A DNA stretch of 64,000 nucleotides from Deltaproteobacteria bacterium. Lineage in GTDB: Bacteria; Myxococcota_A; Polyangia; HGW-17; SLPX01. Below, in pieces: positions 57,683 to 61,342 of this stretch. The notes beneath the pieces are model-generated. The model was not told the DNA's origin. It searched no databases and worked only from the letters and a program-made list of their open reading frames with translations. How positions within the stretch are numbered: position 1 is the first letter of the stretch; each line of letters begins with the position of its first letter. The stretch lies in NCBI GenBank assembly GCA_021162935.1, contig JAGGXR010000157.1, positions 1-64,000 on the forward strand. Direction: 5' to 3'. The position numbers and the translations under genes are program-made.

Positions 57683-57711
57683 TTGACAGTCGTGTCGGCC
57701 GCTGCTACCAA
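57683..57711 (+). promoter_or_regulatory. Sigma70-type promoter of the ExbB/ExbD operon
   Basis: TTGACA at 57683-57688, 17-base spacer, TACCAA at 57706-57711, with TGC before it as an extended -10. The start lies 31 bases upstream of the ATG at 57742. Confidence 0.45.
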
Positions 57712-57741: not shown

Positions 57742-58512
57742 ATGATCGAGTCTGCATATAGTTTTTTGAGCAAGGGCGGCGTGTTGATGTGGCCGATCCT
57801 GGGCGCGTCCGTGCTTGCGCTTGCTCTGTTCCTGGAGCGTCTTTGGAGCCTACGGGCGGCGAACGTGGTGCCTCCTCGTTTCGTGGCTCGGATCAAGTCA
57901 TTGCTTCGTCAACGACAGATCGACGGCGCACGGGTTTTGTGCCAGGAAAACGAATCCGTGGTGGCCAGGGTCGCAGAGGTGGCTCTGGATCGGTGGACCC
58001 GCGGGGTGGATGTTCGCGAGGGGGTTGAGGAACGCGGTCGCCTCGAATCGTCCCGGTTGGACCGTTTTTTGGAAGCTCTTGGGGTCATTGCGGCCATTGA
58101 GCCACTCATGGGTCTGCTTGGAACGGTCATGGGGATGATCAAGGTCTTTCATAATGTGAGCAAGCGGGCGACCGAGGCCGGCGTGGACGTGGGCCTGCTC
58201 GCAAGCGGTATCTGGGAGGCTCTGATCACCACGGCCTTTGGGCTCGCCATCGCCATTCCGGTCTTCATCGGGTACAAATATCTCATTTCGCGCGTGGATC
58301 GATTCATTTTGGATCTCGAAGAGGGTTCCACTGAACTCGTCGATGTTCTCGAAGAGATTGGTCCGGCTGGCGCATCGAGCAGAACGCATGACGCTCGTGG
58401 ATCCGAGACGACGGGAGGTGCGGACAACGTTTCTGCAGGGGCTGAGGCCAGTGAAGAGTCTGCGGCTGCCTCGTCCGGGGGGGCGGCGACCGACGGAGGA
58501 CGGAGCACGTGA
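57742..58512 (+). CDS. MotA/TolQ/ExbB-family proton channel protein
   Basis: 256 aa, inner membrane. Three spans: KGGVLMWPILGASVLALALF (14-33), then a cytosolic loop (EERGRLESSRLDRFLEAL), and two spans in the conserved core IEPLMGLLGTVMGMIKVF and LLASGIWEALITTAFGLAIAIP. Works with the ExbD partner as a stator energised by proton flow. The C-terminal 50 residues are Ser/Ala/Gly-rich and disordered, longer than usual. The stop overlaps the ExbD start by four bases (GTGA, 58509-58512). Partners could be the TonB-like AgmX domain proteins, but linkage is only inferred. Confidence 0.92.
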   Translation: MIESAYSFLSKGGVLMWPILGASVLALALFLERLWSLRAANVVPPRFVARIKSLLRQRQIDGARVLCQENESVVARVAEVALDRWTRGVDVREGVEERGRLESSRLDRFLEALGVIAAIEPLMGLLGTVMGMIKVFHNVSKRATEAGVDVGLLASGIWEALITTAFGLAIAIPVFIGYKYLISRVDRFILDLEEGSTELVDVLEEIGPAGASSRTHDARGSETTGGADNVSAGAEASEESAAASSGGAATDGGRST

Positions 58513-58931
58513 ACTTCAGACGGGACAGATTCGTCAGAAGACGTTCGTCTAGCGCTGTTTTGGACATCACGCCGCTCATCGATGTCGTTTTTTTGCTGCT
58601 GATCTTTTTTCTCCTGACAGCGACTTTCGTGACGAATCCGTCGATTCCGGTCAATCTTCCTACGGCCTCGGCAGATCTGTCGAAGCGGGTACATCGAGAC
58701 CTTCAGGTGACGGTTCGCAGCACTGGAGAGATTGAGTTTCAAGGGAAGGTCGTCGAAGACCCGAGCGAACTCCTGCTTCGTTTTGAAAAGGCCGTGAAGG
58801 AGAACCATTCGGCCAAGCTTCTCATTCGAGCTGACAGCAGGGCGGTCGTGGGGAAGATGGTCGAGGTCATGAACGTGGCGCAGAAGGCTGGTTTGCATCG
58901 GTTTGGCCTCGCCACTCGCATCAAGGAATAG
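58509..58931 (+). CDS. ExbD/TolR-family biopolymer transport protein
   Basis: 140 aa. One N-terminal span preceded by LDITPLIDVVFLLLIFFLL with the conserved Asp residue (LIDVVF) that carries protons. The periplasmic part is short, VTVRSTGEIEFQG, SAKLLIRADSRAVVGKMVEVMNVAQKAGL, matching the ExbD core. The GTG start at 58509 is inside the stop of the ExbB gene, so the two subunits are translationally coupled. The gene ends immediately upstream of a decayed gene fragment. Confidence 0.93.
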   Translation: MNFRRDRFVRRRSSSAVLDITPLIDVVFLLLIFFLLTATFVTNPSIPVNLPTASADLSKRVHRDLQVTVRSTGEIEFQGKVVEDPSELLLRFEKAVKENHSAKLLIRADSRAVVGKMVEVMNVAQKAGLHRFGLATRIKE

Positions 58932-58943
58932 GGCCTCGGTGGA

Positions 58944-59061
58944 TGGTTTTGCTTGTCTGGTACGGAGGAAATCCTCGAGAGCGTGAAGCAGTTCAAAGAT
59001 CAAAGACGTTGAGAGGGATGCGTTGGTCGCAAAGGCGACCGCCATCTGCGCGAAGAAGAAA
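58944..59061 (+). pseudogene. Decayed 3' fragment of a paralogue of the Lys-rich lipoprotein
   Basis: With one frameshift near 58996 this stretch translates as WFCLSGTEEILESVKQF and KDVERDALVAKATAICAKKK. The same region of the gene at 59441-60337 is KFCGFQMRGILKYVKQF and KDAELDPLVAKATAICTKAKK. DNA identity is strongest over 59023-59061 (GGTCGCAAAGGCGACC against GGTTGCCAAGGCGACC). The body of the gene is missing, and the fragment begins 13 bases after the ExbD stop. So this locus once held a second copy, or duplication with loss has occurred. Confidence 0.7.
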
Positions 59062-59386
59062 ATGGCGTGTTCTCGTTGCCTATTCGATGACGAGGGGGAA
59101 ACGAGCGGCCTGGCAGATGGAGCAAGAAAGTCTGGATTTTTGCTTCCGGATTCGGTATGCACACAAAAGGCTGTAAAAGTGAGTTTCAGTGTCGTGGGGT
59201 GGTCGTGGGGTGGTCGTGCGGTGTTTGGGTGGGCTTGAGGGAAATGGATGGATGGCTTGATGTGTCCCGGCGGATGGGGCCCGTGAGGTGTGGCTTGAGA
59301 GTTCGTCAGGAAAATACGACTGTGTTGGGCTGGACCCGGGGAAGGAAGCGGAAGGTCCCTCCGTATACCATGCGAGTGTCATGTAG

Positions 59387-59412
59387 GTCGGCCACTGGGG
59401 CCGACATTTTTT
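59387..59412 (+). terminator. Intrinsic-terminator hairpin in the leader of the Lys-rich lipoprotein
   Basis: GTCGGCC-ACTGG-GGCCGAC (59387-59405) followed by A and six T (59407-59412): the classical stem plus U-tract, plus-strand orientation. Its end is only 29 bases before the ATG at 59441, which leaves no room for a promoter between. It may end the ExbB/ExbD transcript or act as an attenuator for the lipoprotein gene. Confidence 0.7.
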
Positions 59413-59440
59413 GGACGTCATAGCAACAAGGAGGATGGAG

Positions 59441-60337
59441 ATGCGTAAGCAGGTGAGACTGATGGTTTTGTTGGCCGCTGTCAGTGCCATGGCAGCAACC
59501 GCTTTGGTGGGGTGCAAGGACAAGCCGAGCTGTAAATTGCTCTACAAGCGGTACAACAAGTGTGAAAAGGACTTTCCTATGAAGGAGAAGGCCTTCCTCA
59601 AATTGTGCAAGAAGATGAAGGAGAAGTCTCCCGCGGTCAAGGAAGAGCTCAAATGCTCGGTCAAGAAGAACTGCGATGCGTTCAAGAAGTGCCTCAAGGG
59701 TGCAAAAAAGAAGGCTGCGGCGGCGAGGATCACCAAGGAGATCGACAAGGCTCTGGCATCCAAGAAGTACGGCGATGCCCTTTCCACTTGCAAGTACAGC
59801 AAGAAGAACCTTACTGACGACTTGAAGAAGAAGTGCGCCGACTTGAGTGCCTCTGCGTACAAGGAATTTCTTGCCAAGGCGACGGCAGGTCGGGATGCGG
59901 GTAAGAAGAAGGATTGGAAGGTGTGCAGCACCCTGAAGGATGCGGCCAAGGCGATCAACAAGACGGCGGAAGCCGAGGCCATTTGCAATGAGTGGGACAT
60001 GGCCGATAGTATTCAGAAGACGCTGGCCAAGACGGCGGCGGCTCTGAAGAAGGCCAAGGTTCCGTTGCCTTATGAGTGCGATTGGACGGCCAAGAAGTTG
60101 GCCAAGATCAAGACCCCTTCGCCTTGGGTCAAGAAGCAGACCAAGTTGGTGGTGGATGCCTGTTACGTGAAAGTGGCCAAGAAGTATCTGGCGCAGCACC
60201 TGGCTGCCAGATACAAGTTCTGCGGCTTCCAGATGCGCGGCATCCTTAAGTATGTGAAGCAGTTTGGCGTCAAGGATGCCGAACTGGATCCGTTGGTTGC
60301 CAAGGCGACCGCCATCTGCACGAAGGCGAAGAAGTAA
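59441..60337 (+). CDS. Lysine- and cysteine-rich lipoprotein
   Basis: 298 aa. Signal ending ALVGCKDKP (lipobox). The mature protein is extremely rich in Lys and has a regular set of cysteines (SCKLLYKRYNKCEKDF, LKLCKKMKEK, LKCSVKKNCDAFKKCLK, STCKYSKKN, KKKCADL, KVCSTLKD, AICNEWD, YECDWT, DACYVKV, KFCGFQ, AICTKAKK), which suggests several short helical, disulphide-linked units. GGAGG is 9-10 bases before the ATG. A decayed paralogue tail lies upstream, and a terminator-like hairpin immediately precedes the ribosome site. Function unknown; it may bind anionic surfaces. Confidence 0.78.
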   Translation: MRKQVRLMVLLAAVSAMAATALVGCKDKPSCKLLYKRYNKCEKDFPMKEKAFLKLCKKMKEKSPAVKEELKCSVKKNCDAFKKCLKGAKKKAAAARITKEIDKALASKKYGDALSTCKYSKKNLTDDLKKKCADLSASAYKEFLAKATAGRDAGKKKDWKVCSTLKDAAKAINKTAEAEAICNEWDMADSIQKTLAKTAAALKKAKVPLPYECDWTAKKLAKIKTPSPWVKKQTKLVVDACYVKVAKKYLAQHLAARYKFCGFQMRGILKYVKQFGVKDAELDPLVAKATAICTKAKK

Positions 60338-60646
60338 CCACTTTTCGTCGGAAGCTTTTCTTTCGTCCTCCCTTTCTGCATCACAAGATTCATTCTCCAT
60401 CCATGTCGGTGATGGCTCATGCCTTCTTTCGGTCGGTCGAGGCCTGAACGGCCCACGTCCGTCTCGACGCCGCTTTTGTCTCGTTCTCATCACGGCCAGG
60501 GGCGGCGCTCGCAGGGATTGGACGTTTGCTCCGTGCAGGGGGCCCGCGCGGGTGCCGCCTGAGAAGCACATGGGGTGTCGGTGTCAAGGAACAAAATCTC
60601 TTGACCATGGCCTTTTCTCGAAGGATTCTTTTGTGGGAGGTGAGAC
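60338..60646 (+). other. Intergenic stretch before the transglutaminase-like gene
   Basis: About 309 bases without a gene. TTGACC near 60600 with GATTCT 17 bases later is a poor promoter candidate. GGGAGG just before 60647 is the next ribosome site. No clear hairpin was seen. Confidence 0.3.
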
Positions 60647-61342
60647 ATGACGGAGAATTCCGAGCGATGGCTGGCCGGAAGTCCTCGCTGTGACATCGAC
60701 AATCCCGCCCTGCGCGAACGGGCCTTTTCCCTGATTCATGAGGAGGATGACTCCCGCGAGCGCGCCCTGGCGGTGTTTCGCTTTATTCGCGACGACTTCC
60801 CCTTTGGCTTGGGCCTTCAGCACGACAAGGCCTCCGATGTGTTGGCTCGGGGCAAGGGGGACTGCTGCATCACTGCCAACCTTCAGGCGGCTCTGCTCAA
60901 GGTGCTGGGCGTACCCTCGCGGATGCGGGTGACCATCGTGCGTGGGGAGGCGCTCTATGCGCTGATCCCAGGGTGGATGCACCTTGGAATGCCCAAGGAG
61001 GTGGGCCACTGCTGGCCCGAGTGCCAGCTTGATGGTAAGTGGATCGCCTGTGAGGCCCTGCTGGATCCGCCCCTGGTGCGAGGGATGCGTCGAGTCGGAG
61101 TCATCGGTGCGGATGCGCTGCCCACCCTGGATTGGGATGGGGAGACCGACCTGATCCTCTTTGGCGATTACGTCATCGAGGATCTCGGGCCTTTCCCCCA
61201 CATCGACGCGGGCATGGCCTACATCGAGGAGCACGGCTTAGCGCACCGTATGTCCCTTCCCTCGGTCACCATGGAGCGCCTATTCGGCTGGGCCATGTAC
61301 GATCTCATGGACATCCACATTCGCCACTTGCGCGAGGGGTGA
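60647..61342 (+). CDS. Transglutaminase-like cysteine protease-fold protein
   Basis: 231 aa, soluble. The transglutaminase core is visible: nucleophile C73 in ARGKGDCCITANLQAALLKVLGVPSR, the His in KEVGHCWPECQLDGKW (about 120) and the acid in EALLDPP. The long C-terminal part (DWDGETDLILFGDYVIEDLGP) is not assigned. Such domains act as peptidases or amide-forming enzymes; no substrate can be named. Starts at ATG 60647 with GGGAGG about 7-8 bases upstream. No signal peptide, so cytosolic. Confidence 0.82.
   Translation: MTENSERWLAGSPRCDIDNPALRERAFSLIHEEDDSRERALAVFRFIRDDFPFGLGLQHDKASDVLARGKGDCCITANLQAALLKVLGVPSRMRVTIVRGEALYALIPGWMHLGMPKEVGHCWPECQLDGKWIACEALLDPPLVRGMRRVGVIGADALPTLDWDGETDLILFGDYVIEDLGPFPHIDAGMAYIEEHGLAHRMSLPSVTMERLFGWAMYDLMDIHIRHLREG

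Follow-up and report, generated by a model that had tools for sequence, protein, structure and literature searches.

In Escherichia coli, the rplL-rpoB junction carries a partial terminator between genes read from one promoter. Intrinsic terminators have also been mapped in E. coli 5′ UTRs by 3′-end sequencing, for example that of ispU, which has a 6-bp stem and eight U (PMC7815308). The locus described here lies in a window of 64,000 nucleotides (the whole stretch analysed, from contig JAGGXR010000157.1 of a Deltaproteobacteria bacterium), in which all features named below are on the + strand. A terminator hairpin at 59387-59405 has a stem of 7 bp (6 G-C), with the arms GTCGGCC (59387-59393) and GGCCGAC (59399-59405) and a loop of 5, ACTGG (59394-59398), and is followed by a single A (59406) and the U-tract T6 (59407-59412). 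Two features of intrinsic terminators are thus found, a stable G+C-rich hairpin and a U-tract right behind the stem. The ΔG of the stem is −12.7 kcal/mol and that of the local fold 59380-59412 is −14.1, compared with a shuffle mean of −6.4 (z −3.7), and one in 200 shuffles folded as well. The first-pass annotation had reported a hairpin and U-tract just before a start codon, and the sequence confirms this, with a gap of 28 nt between T6 and the ATG at 59441.

A 509-nt spacer holds the terminator, close to its downstream end. Upstream of the spacer are exbB (MotA/TolQ/ExbB; 57742-58512; Pfam PF01618, E 6e-27) and exbD (ExbD/TolR; GTG start; 58509-58931; Pfam PF02472, E 2.8e-27). Downstream is a gene for a Lys/Cys-rich lipoprotein of 298 amino acids (59441-60337), the sole copy found in the genome, with the Shine-Dalgarno sequence AGGAGG at 59429-59434, a good ribosome site and a good coding signal. 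The lipoprotein had no Pfam match at E ≤ 0.1, and relatives were found in 12 of 58 other genomes, the named records being Deltaproteobacteria/Myxococcota MAGs; with these as nearest named relatives and an assembly of 168 contigs, the genome probably belongs to an uncultured lineage. The next gene, transglutaminase-like (60647-61342; Pfam PF01841, E 2.1e-14), has its own promoter candidate, TTGACC at 60601 with a −10 at 60624 (score 12.8). In all ten relatives having both, exbB and the lipoprotein relative are on separate contigs (the exbB match of G001 being weak, E 2.5e-22), and an operon of the two units is thus not established, although the relatives' contigs are short and an adjacency could therefore go unseen. 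In genome G006 (contig 76, 23677-24803; L015/L020) two lipoprotein family members are direct neighbours, and tandem copies thus exist elsewhere in the family. In L003, L004 and L005 (genomes G011, G009 and G008) the Lys-rich lipoprotein gene is immediately preceded by a tRNA-like sequence, with CTT (Lys) at the anticodon position as read by eye.

Base rates of terminator-like sites were obtained from 115 stretches covering 1.82 of the 5.13 Mb of the genome, window included, with a simple gene caller of our own (which, to give one instance, put the start of exbD at 58560, not 58509). On both strands of the whole window there is one site with ΔG ≤ −12 and T ≥ 6, the terminator itself, versus 0.5 in shuffles, and in 64 kb the motif by itself is therefore no rarity; a looser scan gave 5 terminator-like sites where 4.3 were expected. 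With the same strict thresholds, only one of 1041 regions ≤100 nt upstream of starts in the 1.82 Mb has a site, again that of the window (shuffle mean 0.13, 15 rounds). At weaker thresholds (ΔG ≤ −10, T ≥ 5) the excess near starts hinges on the control chosen, six sites within 100 nt of starts being found versus 1.7 in shuffles but also six in mirrored sequence. Intergenic sites in the sampled genome (ΔG ≤ −12, T ≥ 6) numbered 13 compared with 4 in the mirrored control, and in spacers between same-strand genes (ΔG ≤ −10, T ≥ 5) there were 14 on the sense strand versus 3 on the antisense strand. Two of 19 intergenic sites (ΔG ≤ −10, T ≥ 6) are directly behind tRNA genes, tRNA-Leu in L043 and tRNA-Phe in L156, which together with the 13 versus 4 suggests that such elements are real terminators in this genome. 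Even at looser thresholds (ΔG ≤ −8, T ≥ 5), only 3 of the 22 tRNA genes in the sample have such a site downstream, so intrinsic termination is not the rule, and intrinsic terminators look to be present in the genome, yet sparse. Three others of the 19, strong terminators (L123 17035-17052, L073 10783-10809, L076 10708-10733), lie 66-118 nt past a predicted start with a promoter-like score of 13.1-16.7; no tRNA or Rfam match was found at these sites, which are candidate unannotated small RNAs or leaders.

Promoters were scored with a sigma70-type matrix trained on this genome with the window excluded. Genome promoters are of the TTGACA-N17-TATAAT type, TTGACA-N16-18-TA occurring in 27 of 380 divergent upstream regions versus 2.3 in shuffles, and the best match per random 510-nt window has a median of 6.9, a 75th percentile of 9.0 and a 99th percentile of 14.9. 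The promoter-like site of exbB, TTGACA-N17-TACCAA (57683-57711), scores 16.9. The best candidates in the spacer, 8.5 (59076), 8.4 (59133) and 7.9 (59295), are at background level, and a crude sigma54 pattern gave a single GG-N10-GC match at about 59096. No sigma70-type promoter fits behind the hairpin (start at about 59413-59436), where the best candidate scores 0.1 against the median of 6.9. This agrees with the first-pass annotation, which saw no room for a promoter past the hairpin, and any RNA initiated at a recognisable promoter therefore has to run through it. Since the matrix also gives 38 % of 360 divergent genes a score under 8.5, the absence of a promoter before the lipoprotein gene is weak evidence. 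Some of the relatives' lipoprotein genes have clear promoter-like sites.

We give an even chance to the site being an ordinary intrinsic terminator in the spacer that separates exbBD from the lipoprotein gene, which is unrelated to them. RNA polymerase that had initiated upstream, from the strong promoter-like site of exbB or a weak one within the spacer, would make the stem, pause on U6 and mostly release. This release would shield the lipoprotein gene from exbBD transcription, and the gene would be expressed by the read-through fraction or from an unrecognised promoter, not recognisable as sigma70-type. The terminator is predicted to be active and probably works; we infer termination itself, its efficiency and the start site of the lipoprotein mRNA. 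Regulated switching is not needed to account for the site. The strong local fold, the flush U-tract and the position of the only such site upstream of 1041 starts argue for an ordinary terminator, as does the predicted formation of the stem in transcripts begun inside exbD (probability 0.99 for starts at 58509 and 58700). The excess of intergenic sites over the mirrored control, the sense-strand bias and the separate contigs of exbB and the lipoprotein gene in relatives point the same way. Against it stand the distance of 455 nt from the exbD stop, which is late for exbBD, the equal number of mirrored sites near starts, the few tRNA genes with such a site, and the lack of any lipoprotein promoter beyond background (best 8.5) despite its good ribosome site and good coding signal; were termination complete and no promoter present past the hairpin, the gene would be silent. 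A site with ΔG ≤ −10 and T ≥ 6 is also absent behind exbD in all eight relatives with a readable exbD, a count that omits L174 (no exbD recognised), L182 (truncated), L183 (a distant paralogue from the window's own genome) and the other exbB matches, and an ancestral exbBD terminator was therefore rejected. Weaker sites (T ≥ 5) were found 38 nt (L171), 299 nt (L176) and 493 nt (L177) past the exbD stop. An origin as a dispersed repeat was also rejected, the hairpin and T pattern having one exact match in the genome and, at ≤3 mismatches, 10 matches (two of them the terminator site, one per strand) versus 5 in the backward control.

An unlikely explanation, though one to be taken seriously, is that a chance hairpin happens to precede a U-rich stretch and causes little or no termination, the lipoprotein mRNA simply carrying it in its 5′ leader. 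The 0.5 sites expected per shuffled 64-kb window are consistent with this, as are the intragenic sites (17 in the real sequence versus 12 mirrored at ΔG ≤ −10, T ≥ 6) and the family relative in G001, which keeps T8 and a CAAGGAGGA site before its ATG without an adjoining G+C hairpin. The low expectation among the 1041 upstream regions, however, speaks for more than chance, and so do the single base between stem and T6 and the local z value.

It is distinctly unlikely that the terminator is the 3′ end of a small RNA made from the spacer, starting for example at about 59330 or 59168. Some intergenic terminators of the genome do end noncoding RNA genes, as behind the tRNA genes of L043 and L156, and the weak promoter-like sites at 59133 and 59295 could serve such a transcript, but both score below the 75th percentile of random windows. 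Neither candidate RNA is more stably folded than its shuffles (z 0.5 for 59330-59412, 1.8 for 59168-59412), there is no Rfam match, and the spacer was not found in the one family relative. A small RNA ending at the terminator, as the first-pass annotation proposed, may exist, but the spacer offers only background promoters and the folds are at shuffle level.

The first part of the spacer is what remains of a duplicated lipoprotein gene. The relic, the frameshifted 3′ end of a lost copy, spans 58947-59061, and its aligned core (58971-59061) has its counterpart about 1270 nucleotides away, at the 3′ end of the intact lipoprotein gene (60242-60337). When the spacer was compared with the whole genome, the only significant other match was the end of the lipoprotein gene (60254-60325; 78 % identical, E 1.6e-8); beyond it there was one match of 24 bases (E 0.65). 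In a local alignment with its own gene, 69 of 89 bases of the relic are identical (score 86), compared with 55 of 86 for the relative in G001, 56 of 92 for G008 and 52 of 62 for G002; identity with G002 is higher than with the own gene, but the match is shorter and scores 39. An inserted base and a stop disrupt the relic, whose two frames give ILESVKQF and KDVERDALVAKATAICAKKK; at these places the intact gene has ILKYVKQF-GV-KDAELDPLVAKATAICTKAKK, and the Phe-Cys codons at 58947-58952 have the same spacing to Ile-Leu in the alignment as the invariant Phe-Cys of the family. A terminator inherited from the lost duplicate was considered and rejected, since no terminator matching that of the window was found behind the intact gene, nor did pairwise alignment, read by eye, give convincing similarity beyond its stop.

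The inverted repeat GGTCGC-AAAG-GCGACC, proposed in the first-pass annotation as an element competing for base pairing, does exist, at 59025-59040 (one base before the position first reported), but it lies inside the relic and is former coding sequence. Its counterpart in the intact gene, GGTTGC-CAAG-GCGACC (60295-60310), encodes Val-Ala-Lys-Ala-Thr and also forms a hairpin (fold −9.8, versus −7.0 for the relic, of which a slightly shorter piece was folded). Where a long leader holds two suggestive inverted repeats, these may thus turn out to be an ordinary terminator and what is left of a duplicated gene, and a search for relics should precede any inference of regulation from such a leader; beyond this locus the significance is small.

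Attenuation, in which an alternative fold or translation of the leader would switch the terminator and control the lipoprotein gene, is highly unlikely. The layout fits, as had been pointed out from the sequence, and RNAs folded from the artificial 5′ ends 58932 and 59168 do pair against the terminator (the stem then forms with probability 0.002 and 0.13). Of 1000 shuffled spacers, however, 791 equalled or bettered the strongest duplex of the spacer with the terminator (−23.8), which is chance level, and the stem probability was 0.93-0.996 for RNAs from 58985, 59043, 59111, 59270, 59330 and 59360, and 0.996, 0.99 and 0.55 for starts in exbD at 58509, 58700 and 58900. With shuffled upstream sequence, values under 0.01 were reached by 1 of 30 leaders begun at 58932, and values under 0.15 by 15 % of 60 begun at 59168. 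The 58932 exception is explained by 58932-58942 (GGCCTCGGTGG), right past the exbD stop, which can form 11 pairs with the terminator at 59392-59402; this pairing is lost once the transcript takes in more of exbD. The repeat proposed as competitor belongs to the gene relic, and the upstream open reading frames at 58943, 59023 and 59157 (59157-59423, crossing the hairpin) have negative hexamer coding scores. No Rfam family was found in the leader at gathering scores, with only chance-level matches below them, and no match to the spacer was found in the one other genome of the family.

The family leaders were read at 19 of 22 homologue loci, the window's own included (omitted were L007, for which no start was found, L019 and L022). 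A terminator-like site close to the start was found in only one of the 18 others, that of a distant family member in G003, whose promoter-like site, hairpin, T7 and ATG do resemble the layout in the window and speak for attenuation. There (L013 1373-1489), TTGACA-N17-TAACGT (15.1) is followed by CATGCC-N8-GGCATG and a T7 ending 14 nt before the ATG; the distance from stem to ATG is 21 nt, compared with 35 nt in the window. Of the remaining leaders, that of G001 has, 98 nt ahead of its start, a 9-bp hairpin whose T-tract is weak, and L004 has a weak one at 255 nt. Regulated attenuation, one of the two readings offered in the first-pass annotation, is not supported.

A promoter inside the terminator, from which the lipoprotein mRNA would start at about 59413-59436 so that the terminator served the upstream unit alone, is barely plausible. 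It would account for finding a terminator immediately ahead of a gene whose ribosome site is good, and promoter types outside the matrix are conceivable, but the near-zero score of the best sigma70-type candidate argues against it, as does the finding that, among the 150 top-scoring promoter candidates, 94 % are over 30 nt ahead of the start. Scarcely credible at all is a conditional terminator sensing exbD translation through the 11-pair match, in which ribosomes finishing exbD would cover 58932-58942 and let the terminator form, and in their absence 58932-58942 could disarm it and turn the lipoprotein gene on.

The putative ordinary terminator that we favour resembles known intrinsic (rho-independent) terminators in its G+C-rich 7-bp hairpin, single intervening base and U-tract, and differs from them in standing 28 nt before a same-strand start codon. 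Like the partial terminator of rplL-rpoB, it would lower rather than abolish downstream expression; unlike there, no operon of exbBD with the lipoprotein gene is established, and read-through is here a proposal. In position it is like the E. coli ispU 5′ UTR terminator, which is a similar hairpin ahead of a start codon with a mapped 3′ end, its counterpart in the window being a prediction from the DNA (PMC7815308).
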